From a candidate division KSB1 bacterium (GTDB taxonomy: Bacteria; Zhuqueibacterota; JdFR-76; DREG01), in assembly GCA_022566355.1 (NCBI GenBank), contig JADFJB010000089.1, positions 1-20,145 of the forward strand: a stretch of 20,145 nucleotides of DNA, read 5' to 3'. Below, piece after piece: positions 169 to 17,116 of the stretch. Position numbers and translations under genes: made by a program. The notes beneath the pieces were generated by a model. That model saw nothing but the letters and a program-made list of their open reading frames with translations. It was not told the origin of the DNA and did no database searches. Position 1 is the first letter of the stretch. Every line of letters begins with the position of its first letter.

Positions 169-228
169 AATTACCTCCAGCTAAGTTTAATCCTAATTGC
201 TTATACTTAATTCATTCCAAAAAAATAG

Positions 229-312
229 TGCCGAAGGGGGGATTCGAACCCCCACACCCGAAAGGGCACTGCCCCCTCAAGGCAGCGTGTATACCAGTTT
301 CACCACTTCGGC
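229..312 (-). tRNA. tRNA-Leu (anticodon GAG)
   Basis: This is a complete class II tRNA of 84 nt. The acceptor stem GCCGAAG (312-306) pairs with CTTCGGC (236-230), and the discriminator is A at 229. The anticodon stem CTGCC/GGCAG encloses the loop TTGAGGG with anticodon GAG (Leu, CUC/CUU). A long variable arm with a TTTCGG hairpin loop and a T arm GGGGG-TTCGAAT-CCCCC follow. CCA is not encoded. The D-arm side (GTGAAACTGGTATACACG) differs from that of the tRNA-Leu fragment at 2291-2332 (GTGGAATTGGTAGACACG), which has the more usual GGTAGAC form. The gene may therefore be a hybrid whose 5' half came with the inserted segment at 313-2290. Confidence 0.95.
274..290. repeat. 17-bp direct repeat, left copy (candidate att core in tRNA-Leu)
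   Basis: CCCTCAAGGCAGCGTGT covers the anticodon stem-loop and the end of the D arm of the intact tRNA-Leu. The identical 17-mer occurs in the same orientation at 2294-2310, inside a tRNA-Leu half. The anticodon loop is a known crossover site for some tyrosine recombinases. Calling it an att core is inference from the paired positions. Confidence 0.6.
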
Positions 313-392
313 GGGCCTTTAAATTGTATTTGAGCTTGATAAATCCGCTATAAATCTTTCCGTCCTTTTCCGTTAGTCTCCTTTTGACAACA

Positions 393-413
393 ACCGGGCA
401 CCAAATAGGACAC
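393..413 (+). repeat. ACCGGGCACCAAA repeat, left copy, coding TGHQIGH
   Basis: The 13-mer ACCGGGCACCAAA (393-405) is repeated exactly at 2185-2197. Both copies are followed by a second GG(A/G)CAC and, read in the plus direction, give TGHQxGH close to a stop codon (TAA at 450-452 here). The open stretch here begins only at 354, so it is at most a remnant. It could be the tail of a lost recombinase gene or a pair of protein-binding repeats. The sequence does not decide between these. Confidence 0.4.
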
Positions 414-491
414 CTTAATTTTTTTAGTATTTTTCATGATTTTGCAATATAAAATAAAAATTCTAATTAATCAAGAATAAAACGCAAATTA

Positions 492-602
492 TTGGTTCTA
501 TGTTCCCATTGCGGCTTATATTTACGCAAAAGTAAATCATCAATAGATCTCTCGAAAGCGAAAGCTGGCGGATATACAGCATGTAAGGTTTGTAAGCCGT
601 GA
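492..602 (+). CDS. Tiny putative zinc-ribbon protein (36 aa)
   Basis: From a TTG at 492 this frame gives 36 residues with two CxxC knuckles: C4-S-H-C7 and C31-K-V-C34, separated by a Lys/Ser-rich stretch. This is the pattern of a small treble-clef or zinc-ribbon fold. No ATG and no good ribosome binding site are visible. The frame is open from 471, so the true start is uncertain. The stop TGA (600-602) is followed in the same frame by TTG and a 36-residue membrane segment, so the two may be pieces of one broken protein. I do not recognise the family. The spaced cysteine pairs are the only support for its being coding. Confidence 0.35.
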   Translation: MVLCSHCGLYLRKSKSSIDLSKAKAGGYTACKVCKP

Positions 603-713
603 TTGACCAAAGAATACAAAATCTTCAGGATCGGTGTGGTTATCGGTATGGCTATAGGATTTATCCTGGCTATGGTTCTGGGATTTTATGAGGTGCGCCT
701 TATACAATATTGA
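603..713 (+). CDS. Tiny putative single-pass membrane protein (36 aa)
   Basis: The frame begins with TTG directly after the TGA of the zinc-ribbon ORF and ends at a TGA at 711-713. Residues 7-30 (about IFRIGVVIGMAIGFILAMVLGF) form one strongly hydrophobic helix with Gly spacing that suits helix packing, preceded by Lys/Arg and followed by a short polar end. A stop lies 19 bases before the start of the 298-residue gene at 732, so it could be its translational leader or partner. There is no ATG and no clear Shine-Dalgarno sequence. It may equally be the C-terminal half of a zinc-ribbon/membrane protein split by the in-frame TGA. Confidence 0.3.
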   Translation: MTKEYKIFRIGVVIGMAIGFILAMVLGFYEVRLIQY

Positions 714-731
714 ACTATAGAAAGGATAAAA

Positions 732-1628
732 ATGCGAATTGAAAACATATATAAGGGACTTAAACAGATTGACTTTACCGGATCTTTATTAACATATGAA
801 CATGTTAGTGGGGTTACTAAAAAAAGAAAATTAGGAAATGTCACAAAATTCAAAACAATTATAAACGAAATTGATGATTTAAATATTTTTAAAGATGCAA
901 TTAACATATTGTATAAAACCGATCTTTATACGTATGCTGGCGATTCATTCTCAGTAGATTTGGATTCATTTAATAAGTTCTGGCCATTTGTATTAAAAAT
1001 TTTCAATGGAGCAATTGGTTTGTTAGAAATACTAGATAATATTGTAGTAAATCCTAAAGCACATTCTATTCTAATAAAACTTCCTGATAAAAATGATTTT
1101 TCACAGCTTGTTAATAACATGGCCTCCATCAACAAATCCTTAGAACAATTAGTTCTCCATGATGATATCAAAGGCAAAATAGTAATAACTAATTGGCATT
1201 ATAGTTCATTTTGGATTGAATTGATGCTTGGCTCTCAGGCTGCCTTAGTTCTACTGGGAAGTATAGCTTGGTCTTCATCAGTAATCTATAAGAAACTTAA
1301 TGAAGCTATGATAATTGGGCAGCACGTCAAATCTTTAAAAATAAAAAATGATAGTCTTGAAGATATAAAACAAGGTCAAAAAATATTAATAGAACAATTA
1401 TTAGAACTAGAATCTAAAAACGTTCTTAAGAAGCATTATCCAAATGGAGATAACGAACAAACTGAACGAATAAAATTGAGTATTAAGTCATTCGCCAAGC
1501 TAATTCAACAAGGAAGTGAAATCCATCCTGCCTTAAATGCTCCGGAAGACGTGGCAAATCTTTTCCCAGATTTTAAGCAACTTGACTCGGTTGAATCAAA
1601 AGTAAAAAAATTGAAAGACAAAAATTAA
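732..1628 (+). CDS. Unrecognised membrane-anchored protein, main cargo gene of the tRNA-Leu insert (298 aa)
   Basis: The ATG at 732 is preceded by AAAGGA at proper spacing. I do not recognise the function. Visible parts: an N-terminal soluble domain (about 1-160) with mixed helices and strands, including 'FKTIINEIDDLNIF' and 'NMASINKSLEQLV'; one hydrophobic helix at about 161-187 (WIELMLGSQAALVLLGSIAW); then a basic stretch and a charged, probably coiled-coil or helical cytoplasmic part (about 188-298, 'MIIGQHVKSLKIKNDSLEDI'). Codons are strongly AT-rich compared with the glycolytic genes. There is no signal peptide, so the N-domain is probably cytoplasmic or the protein a single-pass type without cleavage. 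Its position in a tRNA-borne insert marks it as element cargo. A defence, immunity or stress role would be guesswork. Confidence 0.8.
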   Translation: MRIENIYKGLKQIDFTGSLLTYEHVSGVTKKRKLGNVTKFKTIINEIDDLNIFKDAINILYKTDLYTYAGDSFSVDLDSFNKFWPFVLKIFNGAIGLLEILDNIVVNPKAHSILIKLPDKNDFSQLVNNMASINKSLEQLVLHDDIKGKIVITNWHYSSFWIELMLGSQAALVLLGSIAWSSSVIYKKLNEAMIIGQHVKSLKIKNDSLEDIKQGQKILIEQLLELESKNVLKKHYPNGDNEQTERIKLSIKSFAKLIQQGSEIHPALNAPEDVANLFPDFKQLDSVESKVKKLKDKN

Positions 1629-1675
1629 AACTGTCATGACTATATACAATCACTAACTCAACTCCAGGGAGTCTT

Positions 1676-1855
1676 ATGCACCAAAATGAGAAACCTGCAA
1701 TCTACAACGTTGAAGACAAACCAGGCCAAGGCATTTACAAATGTTTCCGTTGCTTCTCGATAGTAAAATTAAGAGATGATGAGAAATTACCGATATGTGG
1801 CAATTGTGATAGAGGTTATAAAACTAAGTATATTAAGGTTGAAAAAGTGGCTTGA
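1676..1855 (+). CDS. Small rubredoxin-like zinc-ribbon protein (59 aa)
   Basis: The ATG at 1676 follows a good ribosome binding site (CAGGGAG, about 5 bases away). The protein has the order 'DKPGQGIYKC' then C23-F-R-C26, a 14-residue spacer, and C41-G-N-C44. This is the layout of the short zinc-ribbon/rubredoxin-type proteins found as stand-alone ORFs in many bacteria, whose usual consensus is 'KPGxGxYxCxxC...LPxCxxC'. The two cysteine pairs should bind one Zn or Fe. The product is probably a structural or protein-protein interaction domain rather than an enzyme. It lies 47 bases after the 298-residue gene in the same direction and may be co-transcribed with it. The fold is supported by sequence; the cellular role is unknown. 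Confidence 0.65.
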   Translation: MHQNEKPAIYNVEDKPGQGIYKCFRCFSIVKLRDDEKLPICGNCDRGYKTKYIKVEKVA

Positions 1856-1908
1856 GTTTACATAAATAAACGCTCCTGCCTTGCCGGCAGCATTGCCCAT
1901 GATGGTTT

Positions 1909-1937
1909 CCCCGCCGTGTGGGCTTCGGCTGGCGGGG
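1909..1937. other. GC-rich hairpin between insert genes
   Basis: CCCCGCC (1909-1915) and GGCGGGG (1931-1937) are perfect inverted arms around a 15-base loop, in an otherwise AT-rich insert. A second short hairpin, CTGCC-TTGCC-GGCAG, lies at 1876-1890. No T-run follows, so this is not a convincing terminator for plus-strand transcription. A scattered palindromic repeat unit is another possibility. Confidence 0.4.
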
Positions 1938-1962
1938 GTTGTTAATTTGAAGGGAACCGATA

Positions 1963-2232
1963 ATGGCATCCAAAACATCCAACGACAAGACCAAAAAATC
2001 TGATGTTCTTTCTAGTAATCAATTTGTATATTTTCTTCTAAATTTGCTGAACGAAACCGATCGTGCAGCGGTTATTGTCGGCGCTGCAAACCTTGACCTA
2101 ATTCTTTACAAGATATTAACAAAGTTTTTGCTACGAAGTCATCGCCAAAACGAAGCAAACGCTATTAACTTTACTCCGACAAAGACCGGGCACCAAACCG
2201 GGCACATGGGAATTATTAATAAAACTCAGTAG
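1963..2232 (+). pseudogene. MltR-like fragment fused to a foreign tail (89 aa)
   Basis: The ATG at 1963 is preceded by GAAGGGA. Residues about 20-57 ('FVYFLLNLLNETDRAAVIVG' and 'AANLDLILYKILTKFLL') resemble the first helices of the MltR (mannitol operon repressor) family, in which an E-x-D-R-(A/G)-A motif is followed by 'A-x-L-D-x-L-L'. MltR-type domains are normally around 150-170 residues, so most of the domain is missing. After 'KFLL' the sequence becomes a polar tail ending TGHQTGHMG, unlike MltR and shared with the short repeat at 393. I read this as a deletion fusion between an MltR-like gene and the end of another gene, possibly the element's recombinase. MltR-like proteins outside enterobacteria have no established role. 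Confidence 0.5.
2185..2205 (+). repeat. ACCGGGCACCAAA repeat, right copy, coding TGHQTGH
   Basis: ACCGGGCACCAAA (2185-2197) is an exact copy of 393-405. Here it is followed by CCGGGCAC, so the octamer CCGGGCAC appears twice with a four-base gap. It codes for TGHQTGH near the end of the 89-codon frame. It lies 97 bases inside the right 17-bp repeat, while the left copy lies 103 bases inside the left one. That near-symmetry fits element-end structures. Confidence 0.4.
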
Positions 2233-2290
2233 TCTAATAAGTTATATTAAAAACAACCTTTTGTGAATTTTGAAGTTCTCCTCCGACATA

Positions 2291-2332
2291 GCTCCCTCAA
2301 GGCAGCGTGTCTACCAATTCCACCACTTCGGC
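2291..2332 (-). pseudogene. 5' half of a tRNA-Leu gene (truncated at the anticodon)
   Basis: On the minus strand the sequence starts GCCGAAG (2332-2326), continues with a canonical D arm (GTGGAATTGGTAGACAC) and the anticodon stem-loop CTGCC-TTGAGGG, then departs from tRNA sequence after GAGC. There is no variable arm, T arm or 3' acceptor strand, so it cannot make a tRNA. It lies just past the end of secG, the position of tRNA-Leu(GAG) in several bacteria, and is best read as the displaced original 5' half. Confidence 0.85.
2294..2310. repeat. 17-bp direct repeat, right copy (candidate att core)
   Basis: CCCTCAAGGCAGCGTGT is identical to 274-290 and in the same orientation. Identity between the tRNA half and the intact tRNA breaks on both sides of this block: T/G just before it on the tRNA strand, and G/A just after. 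This is what a crossover within the block would leave. Confidence 0.6.
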
Positions 2333-2340
2333 TTTCTTTT

Positions 2341-2367
2341 AATAAAAAATCAAGATATTTTTTTATT
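2341..2367 (-). terminator. AT-only hairpin at the end of secG (weak terminator candidate)
   Basis: AATAAAAAA (2341-2349) and TTTTTTATT (2359-2367) can pair around a 9-base loop and overlap the secG stop codon. On the minus strand the second arm is a T-run. The stem has no G-C pairs, so strong termination is doubtful, and transcription may run on into the tRNA fragment. Confidence 0.3.
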
Positions 2368-2725
2368 ATTTTGTTGAGTCAATTGGAACAGGAATAATTG
2401 CCTGGGGCAATAAGCCGTCTGCATTTTGCAAAATATTCGCTGGAGAGGGATTATTTTGAATTTCTTGCTGGATTAAACTTTGATTTGGTGCAACATTTTT
2501 TTTGATTAAACCCTGGACAACACTTCCCAGCATAAAGATGATTGCAAGTACAATGGTTAATTTGGTTAAAAAATCTCCTGCGCCTCTACCGCCGAAAACC
2601 GCACCAATATTTCCTTGTCCTCCGAATGCACCTGCAAGACCGCCACCCTTACTCGACTGCATAAGAATAGAAACAGCTAACAATAGACAAACGACTATAT
2701 GCAAAAATACTAAAAAAGATAACAT
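2366..2725 (-). CDS. secG: Protein translocase subunit SecG
   Basis: SecG is the small membrane subunit of the SecYEG channel and stimulates protein export. The 119-residue product shows the family plan: a first membrane helix (about 2-22, FLVFLHIVVCLLLAVSILMQ), the conserved cytoplasmic loop 'QSSKGGGLAGAFGG' with its Gly run, 'GAVFGGRGAGDFLTK', and a second helix (about 54-72, LTIVLAIIFMLGSVVQGL). A Gln/Asn/Pro-rich tail (about 75-119) makes it longer than the minimal family core, as is common in Bacteroidota relatives. The start ATG at 2725 has a GAGGAG-type site close upstream. It lies 28 bases after tpiA as the last gene of the glycolytic operon, an arrangement seen in many bacteria. Confidence 0.95.
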   Translation of the reverse strand: MLSFLVFLHIVVCLLLAVSILMQSSKGGGLAGAFGGQGNIGAVFGGRGAGDFLTKLTIVLAIIFMLGSVVQGLIKKNVAPNQSLIQQEIQNNPSPANILQNADGLLPQAIIPVPIDSTK

Positions 2726-5765: not shown

Positions 5766-6013
5766 TCATGAATTTATACTTGACAATTTTTGTGCTAATT
5801 CTAGCAATACCGGGTTCAACACCTTTGTATTTGTCACGATTTCATTAAGTGAATTCGAAATATACTCATCCCTACAAGACAAGTGTCCAGCCCGGATTTA
5901 CTTCTCAAGATTAAATCAACTGCGTTTTGTCCAAGTTTATTTGTTAATGTACGGATCGCTACATTCATCCCAGAGCAATCACCGCCACTGCTTAATAATC
6001 CGATTTTTTTCAT
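5766..6013 (-). pseudogene. pfkA: Remnant of 6-phosphofructokinase (N- and C-termini only)
   Basis: From the ATG at 6013 the frame reads 'MKKIGLLSSGGDCSGMN' plus 'VAIRTLTNK', the ATP-binding N-terminus of PfkA. It then jumps to 'NAVDLILRSKSGLDTCLVGM', which matches the family's C-terminal region. About 230-280 residues in between, including the substrate-binding and catalytic Asp region, are missing. The original frame is then lost by a shift: another frame continues as 'SNSLNEIVTNTKVLNPVLLE' and 'LAQKLSSINS', a typical PfkA end, stopping at 5766. The remnant cannot be active. It lies 31 bases before gap and probably marks the old first gene of this operon. The cell would need another phosphofructokinase (ATP or PPi type) or use the operon mainly for lower glycolysis and gluconeogenesis. 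Confidence 0.85.
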
Positions 6014-6360
6014 GATATCCAAATCTTTATAGTAAAATTTAAACTCTATAATAAAACCATTTCCCTGGAATATCCACATTAAATTGACAAGAAAAAGGCT
6101 GCTAAATTATTATTCTCTTGATGACTTAAATCATTACAAATTAATCAGATAGTTTGTATTTTTATTTCCCAATTCTTGAATTTTGGATCAAGTTGATGAA
6201 TAAAACTATAATCAGAATATCTCCTACAAAAGCCACAAATATATGGAAGAATACAATGTCAGTTATTTCGTAAACTTTGTGCCTTCATTGCGTCCTTGTG
6301 GTTAATCTAATTCATGTCGGTTTGATGCTAAAGCTTCACTCCAAATTTAATTTGAAAGCT
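6014..6360. other. Intergenic stretch between the pfkA remnant and comF
   Basis: I see no gene here. Minus-strand readings upstream of the pfkA ATG give only a short run without family features. The stretch 6277-6308 (TTTGTGCCTTCATTGCGTCC and on to GTGGTTAAT) resembles a short motif scattered between genes in many bacterial genomes. An imperfect inverted repeat, AGCTT..AAATT against AATTT..AAGCT, lies at about 6331-6360, at the end of comF, and could be a weak terminator. No clear promoter could be assigned. Confidence 0.4.
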
Positions 6361-8836: not shown

Positions 8837-9073
8837 TTAAAAGTCCCATTTTAATCCACGATTCTTCTGTTTTGGCAATTTAGCTCGGATTAATCCTAAG
8901 TGGAAGTTGGTTTTTCCATAACCTATGGCACCTTCAATACGGTTTCGTTCCCGTTGTTTCTTTCGTCGCCATTGGCGCTCCTTTTCAACCTCTACTGAAT
9001 TTTTGTTTCGACGTCCTAAAGGCTTTACCGCTGCCCGAATGCTATGTTTTTTCAAATAAGCGCAAAAGCCTGT
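8837..9073 (-). pseudogene. C-terminal fragment of an IS1182/IS5-like DDE transposase
   Basis: The open stretch has 79 codons and is closed upstream by a TAA (9076-9074). It reads 'FCAYLKKHSIRAAVKPLGRR', then a very basic linker 'EKERQWRRKKQRERNRIEG', then 'AIGYGKTNFHLGLIRAKLP'. The series PLGR(P/R)...ERNRIEG...GxGK...L..I.AKL is the end of IS1182/IS5-type transposases, where the Glu in NRIEG is likely the last acidic residue of the DDE triad. The front part with the two catalytic Asp residues is absent, so it is inactive. Terminal inverted repeats were not found. It shares the decayed interval 8559-9073 with the barrel fragment. Confidence 0.7.
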
Positions 9074-16066: not shown

Positions 16067-16983
16067 TCACTCTTTGGATTTCTCATCTAATGTACGTTTC
16101 AAAATCGGCAATGTAGCTTTGTCTTTTTCACTACCAAGATGTTCTTTAATTTCGATAATAGTTTTTAGATTTAAAATTCTAATCTTCATTTCTCCTTCAA
16201 TTTCTAACCTGATCTATTCATAAACTTTTTACTGTCATCCAGAAAGGATCTATTTTGCAACTATTTATTTAATACTAACAATTATGCTTTTTCAATTTTA
16301 TGGAAATAGATCCCGTTGCGGCAGGCTGTCGCAAAATGCACAACATCATCTGAAATGTCATTCTGAGCGCCAGCGAAGAATCTTGTTGGTACTGCCCTTA
16401 ATAACCTGATTATACGATAGTTACAACGAGTTTCAAACAAGATCCTTCACTCCGCTTCGCTCCGTTCAGGATGACAATTCCAGGCTTTTTGCCTATTCTG
16501 CGACAGCCTGTGCGACGGGATGACAACTTTGGAAACTCAAGCTTAAATCCATAATTCATGAATTATTCAAGCCAATCTATCTGTTTTATCGATTAGGTCA
16601 TCGTATTCCATGGCCATCCCTATGGTTCCTAAAATGATCAAGTGGTCCTAATTTTTCATTAAAAGATGATGGCCAGGAGAATTCAGATGATTCTTTTTGG
16701 GTTTTAACCTACGTTCCGGTTGCTCCCTGTAATAGGCTTCAAGTTTCCTTAAGACATTAACAAGTCGATCAAGGTTTTTATCTTCCTGAGAATGAACAAT
16801 GTCCAGATCGAATGTCATAATCGGCGCTCCGTGCAAAACTGCACCTAGTCCACCCACAACAATGAAATCCACGTTGTGTTCTACAAGAACTTTAAGTATA
16901 CCGATAAAATTAGATAAATTTTCCAAATTTTCGTAAATGATTAATTGAATTAAGATGTTGTTGCAACACCTGCAATCGTTCAA
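16067..16983 (-). pseudogene. Nucleotidyltransferase-family gene split by frameshifts and an insertion
   Basis: Three pieces of one protein lie in order on the minus strand. Piece 1 (to 16648) reads 'IGILKVLVEHNVDFIVVGGL', 'GAVLHGAPIMTFDLDIVHSQ' and 'LNSPGHHLLMKN'; the GG...HG...T-x-D-L-D series is the nucleotidyltransferase fold with its metal-binding D-x-D. Piece 2 (about 16648-16570) continues across two frame changes: 'LGPLD', then 'ILGTIGMAMEYDDLIDKTDR'. Piece 3 (16212-16067) reads 'EGEMKIRILNLKTIIEIKEH', 'LGSEKDKATLPILKRTLDE', the family's usual end. About 293 bases of nested inverted repeats (16233-16525) lie between pieces 2 and 3. The gene follows a small conserved ORF that is its usual neighbour. 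The start of piece 1 is probably a TTG near 16930, as the first residues called from 16983 overlap the upstream ORF. It is not functional. Confidence 0.85.
16233..16525. mobile_element. Nested inverted-repeat (MITE-like) insertion
   Basis: Three inverted pairs lie one inside the other: TGTCATCC (16233-16240) with GGATGACA (16518-16525); CCCGT-GC-CAGGCTGTCGCA-type arms (16312-16333 with 16499-16519, about 20 bases, few mismatches); and TGTCATTCTGA (16356-16366) with TCAGGATGACA (16466-16476). The inner part includes GAAGAATCTTG and AAGATCCTTC plus a short palindromic CGCTTCGCTCCG tract. 'TGTCATTCTGAGCG...GAAGAATC' units are widespread non-coding repeats in bacterial genomes. There is no transposase inside. 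It lies within the nucleotidyltransferase pseudogene. Confidence 0.75.
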
Positions 16984-17116
16984 GTGGTGACAATGAAAGC
17001 ATCCAGCGAATTAAGGTAACATCTACTCCATCTTTACCATAGTTACTGCCAATACCCGGAAATGAATCATCCAATTGGGTATCTGAACCTGTTGAATCAG
17101 TATTCTTCTTTTTCAT
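16910..17116 (-). CDS. Small conserved protein that precedes the nucleotidyltransferase (68 aa)
   Basis: The ATG at 17116 opens a 68-residue protein with a polar N-terminus ('KKKNTDSTGSDTQLDD') and a helical core 'GVDVTLIRWMLSLSPLERLQ' followed by 'VLQQHLNSI'. I recall short proteins with the 'DVTLIRWMLSLTPxERLxVLQ' core directly upstream of nucleotidyltransferases of the type found here, so the two form a conserved pair. Whether it is an antitoxin-like partner is unknown. It lies 23 bases downstream of the S9 peptidase gene and overlaps the nucleotidyltransferase frame at its end. The last residues, 'HLRKFGKFI', may be altered by the same decay that hit the partner. Confidence 0.6.
   Translation of the reverse strand: MKKKNTDSTGSDTQLDDSFPGIGSNYGKDGVDVTLIRWMLSLSPLERLQVLQQHLNSINHLRKFGKFI

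Follow-up and report, generated by a model that had tools for sequence, protein, structure and literature searches.

A decayed 2-kb element that probably replaced the 5′ half of a bacterial tRNA-Leu(GAG) gene

Most mobile elements that target tRNA genes keep the host promoter of the gene they enter; integration that replaces the 5′ half instead passes transcription of the tRNA to the mobile element. At one locus of a candidate division KSB1 bacterium, a complete tRNA-Leu gene and a detached tRNA-Leu 5′ half lie on either side of about 2 kb of DNA. Which of the two 5′ halves is the host's own, and what put the other one there? We addressed this in a 20,145-nucleotide stretch of DNA (the window; contig C89 of the 4.62-Mb genome G000) and across 81 further genomes from the phylum.

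Results

A complete tRNA-Leu(GAG) and an orphan 5′ half

ARAGORN finds a single tRNA in the window, a tRNA-Leu(GAG) at 228-312 on the minus strand, which scores 54.5 bits against Rfam RF00005. A repeat search of the window pairs 271-322 with 2291-2342 at 85% identity, a match that includes the 17-mer CCCTCAAGGCAGCGTGT. In both tRNA copies the common 17-mer (ACACGCTGCCTTGAGGG) runs from the D stem through the anticodon loop, and the flanks diverge on both sides. The second copy is a 5′ half only, its minus strand giving GCCGAAGTGGTGGAATTGGTAGACACGCTGCCTTGAGGG and then diverging, and it begins 33 bp past the secG stop codon. The two methods confirm the original observation that an intact tRNA-Leu and a detached 5′ half, sharing a 17-mer, flank about 2 kb of DNA (Table 1). 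Two further matches in the genome are the CAG and CAA leucine tRNAs, and only one GAG 3′ half was found; the tRNA-Leu(GAG) gene appears to be single in G000.

Table 1. Coordinates of the features at the tRNA-Leu(GAG) locus, numbered from the first nucleotide of the window.
Feature	Position	Strand	Basis or remark
Host gene downstream, 5′ end (cut by the contig end)	1..170	-	Homologous to the post-tRNA gene of relatives
Working tRNA-Leu(GAG)	228..312	-	ARAGORN, Rfam 54.5 bits; synteny downstream shared with relatives
17-bp identity block (core), working copy	274..290	-	Spans the anticodon loop
Decayed element body	313..2290	+	34.2% GC; no recognizable integrase domain
Far-arm direct repeat GGGCACCAAATAGGACACC	396..414	+	Overlaps 386-413; 117 bp to the working tRNA's anticodon
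Cargo ORF, 298 aa, family unassigned	732..1628	+	Open reading frame
Zinc-ribbon-like ORF, 59 aa	1676..1855	+	DUF1451, E = 0.003, under the Pfam cut-off
Truncated ORF, N-terminal piece, family unassigned	1963..2139	+	Open reading frame
Candidate integrase C-terminal tail remnant SHRQNEANAINFTPTKTGHQTGHMGIINKTQ	2140..2232	+	In-frame fusion at the end of a short ORF
Near-arm direct repeat GGGCACCAAACCGGGCACA	2188..2206	+	Overlaps 2178-2205; 89 bp to the orphan's anticodon
Original tRNA-Leu(GAG) 5′ half, displaced	2291..2332	-	Repeat pairing; empty sites in relatives
17-bp identity block (core), orphan copy	2294..2310	-	Pairs with 274..290
secG, original upstream neighbor	2366..2725	-	Pfam SecG, E = 9e-21

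Relatives identify the original half

In two genomes of the same family (G001 and G002) and one of the same order (G004), one complete tRNA-Leu(GAG) comes after secG, and then the same downstream gene, which encodes a small exported protein. The gene at 1-170 of the window resembles this post-tRNA gene in tblastn comparisons with G001 (E = 2e-4) and G004 (E = 8e-4; loci L003 and L005), and the resemblance in G002 was judged by eye. Because this gene order is shared by all three relatives, the original gene is represented by the orphan on the secG side (5′ half) and by 273-228 (3′ half). The expectations that the secG neighborhood would show which half is original, and that an empty site with one tRNA-Leu after secG would exist in relatives, are thus borne out at the level of both family and order.

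The stretch from the D arm to the anticodon is matched in 69 of the 82 genomes of the phylum; two copies with a GAG loop occur in G000 only, and the surplus matches in other genomes are CAG tRNAs. None of the relatives among these 69 genomes has two tRNA-Leu(GAG) copies, such as a pair of full genes in tandem. On these counts, we regard a chance origin of the second GAG 5′ half as excluded. Comparison with the relatives shows the working tRNA as a hybrid of an element-derived 5′ half (312 to ~274) and the original 3′ half (~290 to 228), with a crossover point that lies somewhere within the 17-bp identity block at 274-290. The empty-site synteny and the single-GAG count together back the earlier suggestion of a crossover in the anticodon stem-loop that supplied a new 5′ half. 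Because the 5′ half was replaced through this crossover, the tRNA is cut off from its old promoter.

The D arm reads GGTGAAACTGGTATACACG in the working copy, GGTGGAATTGGTAGACACG in the orphan and GGTGAAACTGGTAGACACG in the intact tRNA of G001. Two of the three differences between working copy and orphan are also present in the G001 tRNA (GGTGAAACTGG), and GGTATACACG (T for G; the T in GGTATA) is unique to the working copy among the 69 genomes. The working D arm, which had been described as slightly odd, is therefore odd at one base but not at the two positions that it shares with G001. In the anticodon stem, both G000 copies (228-312 and 2291-2332) have CTGCC where close relatives have CTGTC. 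The shared C suggests either a recent common history of element and host or later conversion between the copies.

The insert retains two putative arm-type repeats

The insert had been described as consisting of AT-rich, oppositely oriented genes. Its orientation is as described, with three ORFs between the tRNA copies all on the plus strand and secG and the tRNA on the opposite strand, but it is only mildly AT-rich compared with the 38-40% GC of its surroundings. The 298-aa cargo ORF has no relative above noise in the 81 other phylum genomes, in viral contigs or in plasmids, one weak phylum match (E = 0.007) having been judged noise. A CRISPR-repeat match at 1020-1047 is under threshold and within an ORF, and was attributed to chance.

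Near each end of the insert lies a copy of a 28-bp direct repeat (386-413 and 2178-2205). The copies agree at 23 of 28 positions, the best of 120 shuffled end pairs reaching 20, and in each, two GGNCACC-like units lie 12 bp apart, in the pattern GGGCACC-N5-GGNCAC. With at most one mismatch in total, the doubled unit occurs on the plus strand of the window at 396-414 and 2188-2206 only; shuffled windows yielded a mean of 0.18 matches each at a looser limit (one mismatch per unit, pairs with two mismatches counted). In both unit and spacing, the window repeats match those at the 3′ ends of the phylum's tRNA-adjacent tyrosine-integrase genes. These observations support the assignment of 396-414 and 2188-2206 as putative arm-type integrase sites that flank the core in an attP of ~250 bp. 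Exact and near-exact searches found the window's arm repeat in none of the 81 other phylum genomes; its matches in viral and GTDB contigs are at chance level, none of them inside an integrase.

No integrase domain was found in 313-2290. The repeat at 2188-2206 translates in frame as TGHQTGH close to the end of the ORF that stops at 2232, and 2140-2232 has the position, frame and arm repeat seen in intact integrase relatives, although a search with an integrase-tail profile did not pick out this stretch (not significant).

Related integrases often face tRNA 5′ ends

A tyrosine-integrase search of G000 found a broken gene on contig C80 that adjoins tRNA-Arg(CCT) on the upstream side and is directed into the 5′ end of the tRNA. 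With arm repeat GGTCACCAAATGGTTACC just past its stop, this broken integrase makes C80:16043-16950 (L058) a second candidate scar in the genome; a displaced 5′ half of the tRNA-Arg was not found in the G000 assembly at ≤3 mismatches. Searching the phylum with a 90-residue query from this gene (one residue off the genome) gave 23 loci, C80 itself included. In 11 of the 23, a share that is not an unbiased rate because the sample is small and was seeded by a 5′-facing integrase, the gene stops just short of an intact, same-strand tRNA (Arg, Val, SeC or Leu), at its 5′ end. The integrases of five other loci face the 3′ end of an intact tRNA, those of five abut a displaced 3′ fragment, and two do neither. 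An integrase ahead of an intact tRNA implies, but does not alone prove, that the element supplied the 5′ half of that tRNA. In the contig stretches of the other relatives, the majority of them running no more than a few kb beyond the integrase, no displaced fragments were found.

Many of the integrase tails have a doubled unit, for example TGCCACC-TATT-TGCCACC. In seven 5′-facing loci with a recognized repeat, the end of the repeat lies 86, 73, 99, 87, 88, 86 and 92 bp from the anticodon (range 73-99, with five of the seven at 86-92), and the window's distance of 89 bp falls among them. We propose that the window element belongs to this group of integrases in the phylum, which often work from the 5′ side of the tRNA. 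At one locus (L079; G077 contig C231, ~1864-1881) the integrase frame enters tRNA-Arg(CCT) and stops within the D arm; the same bases would encode the integrase C-terminus and the start of the tRNA.

The window element need not be dead: with both arms and the core intact in sequence, and with a decayed integrase that has a similar arm retained at tRNA-Arg in G000, it could be a small non-autonomous passenger with a full attP, moved by an integrase encoded elsewhere. We consider this unlikely, as there is one copy in G000 and none in the 81 other phylum genomes, and the recognizable partner integrase of G000 is itself broken. An intact copy of the element was not found in G000 or in the 81 other genomes, nor was its attP junction found in viral contigs.

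A probable parallel replacement at tRNA-SeC

Genome G046 contains two exact tRNA-SeC 5′ halves. On contig C16, an integrase is followed by TGCCACCTATCTGCCACC and then by the intact tRNA-SeC; on contig C3, the tRNA-SeC sequence breaks off within the anticodon stem, and TGCCACCTAACTGCCACC, oriented the same way, comes after it. The case is read from these two contigs, whose join was not seen. The distances from repeat to anticodon are 99 and 126 bp, compared with 89 and 117 bp in the window. In G047, of the same genus, the sequence upstream of an uninterrupted tRNA-SeC resembles the region upstream of the G046 orphan (108-bp alignment) and is unlike that upstream of the G046 intact copy. Because the G047-like upstream sequence stays with the orphan, the 5′ half and its upstream region were replaced in G046 as well. 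Relative to the near arm, the tRNA runs antisense in the window and sense in G046 and the other 5′-facing loci; since the anticodon stem-loop is nearly symmetrical, both orientations are plausible.

This parallel bears on an alternative explanation, in which local duplication gave a tandem pair of tRNA-Leu genes, the 3′ half of one disappeared later and unrelated DNA came to lie between the two. Such a history requires no integrase, and none is present. We nonetheless find it quite improbable: two GAG copies are present in no other genome among the 69 with a match, and duplication leaves unexplained why the similarity ends in the anticodon stem, why two arm repeats stand at the expected distances and why G046 presents a parallel. 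That the element brought a complete tRNA-Leu and merely broke the host gene, as mycobacteria phages do in tRNA-dependent lysogeny (PMC10865867), is hardly credible, because the 3′ end of the working tRNA adjoins the same gene as in the empty-site relatives, which makes this 3′ half the host's, and it is the only GAG 3′ half found in G000.

A model for the exchange

We favor, with a probability of roughly 0.87, the reading in which the 2-kb segment is what remains of a tyrosine-integrase element that swapped the 5′ half of tRNA-Leu(GAG) in the anticodon stem-loop, kept its arms and lost its integrase by deletion. According to this model, the element would have had a tRNA-Leu 5′ half within its attP and would have recombined with the lone tRNA-Leu(GAG) between secG and its downstream neighbor, at the anticodon stem-loop. 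Integration stranded the host 5′ half by secG and joined the element 5′ half to the host 3′ half, as the synteny shows, and both arm-type sites would have been retained as direct repeats around the core of the ~250-bp attP, as their geometry supports. Judging from position and the DNA repeat, the integrase would have been the last gene before the near arm, ending at 2232, and would later have been deleted to ≤~30 codons. The hybrid tRNA would now be transcribed from a promoter inside the element. That the element must supply a promoter, as originally argued, stands as a logical requirement, but a promoter scan was not above chance (10 matches compared with 10.3 expected). The sequence TACAAT lies 10 bp ahead of the tRNA-Leu(GAG), and folding of the tRNA as a free RNA was uninformative.

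Discussion

Replacement of the 5′ half has precedents. In the Islander data, 159 of 3,919 islands leave a 5′ fragment (PMC4383910). A review of archaeal elements, according to which bacterial tRNA genes, with very few exceptions, are still expressed from the original promoter once an element has integrated, gives pTN3-like elements as the 5′-half type in archaea (PMC8371274), and integration of pTN3 separates a tRNA-Leu from its original promoter (PMC5495485). The 5′ mode is therefore known but uncommon, the rarer of two known ways, and the window element is, by its scar, a further and decayed instance.

The closest comparison can be made feature by feature. Islander's 5′-fragment islands have an intact tDNA with the cognate 5′ fragment upstream in the same orientation, an anticodon-centered crossover and an attP whose quoted size is ~250 bp (PMC4383910). 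The window likewise has a flanking intact tDNA and 5′ fragment, relatives with a single-tDNA empty site and putative arm sites on both sides of the core, but has no integrase gene inside the island; at ~2 kb and with no integrase left, the element would be rejected by Islander's filter. Because the integrase domain is absent, we call it a remnant and not an intact member. The pTN3-like plasmids of Thermococcales also attach in the 5′ half of tRNA-Leu and cut the rebuilt tRNA from its promoter (PMC5495485, PMC8371274), but they are archaeal and their attP lies within the integrase gene, and integration splits that gene. No integrase is left in the window; any such gene would have ended outside the core, and the candidate tail, which stops at 2232 ahead of it, would speak against an attP-in-integrase arrangement of the pTN3/SSV type. 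Islands and prophages of the common, 3′-restoring mode share the enzyme class and the target gene, and the anticodon loop is one of their usual crossover sub-sites; unlike the window element, they strand a 3′ fragment, and the tRNA stays on its original promoter. Mycobacteriophages with tRNA-dependent lysogeny share a short core within a tRNA gene but do not rebuild the tRNA, a full phage tRNA compensating instead (PMC10865867), whereas in the window the tRNA was rebuilt as a hybrid whose 3′ half, by synteny, is the host's.

Within this phylum, the 5′ mode seems common: 11 of 23 integrase loci are 5′-sided, in a small and 5′-seeded sample, compared with about 4% of mapped islands that have a 5′ fragment generally. 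After the element decays, this mode leaves a hybrid tRNA, here the only GAG leucine tRNA found in G000. A broader idea, which we offer tentatively and would rate at somewhat below even odds, is that a clade of tyrosine integrases in the phylum adopted 5′-side attack as a main mode and repeatedly gave tRNAs that are essential or present in single copy (Leu-GAG, SeC, Arg and Val) a new promoter and 5′ half, placing tRNA expression partly under mobile-element control. The phylum would be well suited to studies of promoter supply and of the choice of the replaced half.

Other features of the window

Three further stretches of the window, all on the minus strand, hold apparently incomplete genes. 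A short ORF at 5834-6079, near GAPDH, PGK and TPI-like genes, matches 6-phosphofructokinase at its N-terminal start alone (Pfam PFK, E = 4e-5, profile positions 1-32); this is either a pseudogene or a pfk gene that has lost a large internal part. At 16648-17116 there are two overlapping ORFs, one of which resembles the start of a nucleotidyltransferase (PF10706/DUF6036, under the cut-off); this is probably a frameshifted or truncated gene. A C-terminal remnant of a DDE transposase at 8837-9055 (PF13586, E = 1.6e-8) marks a decayed insertion sequence.
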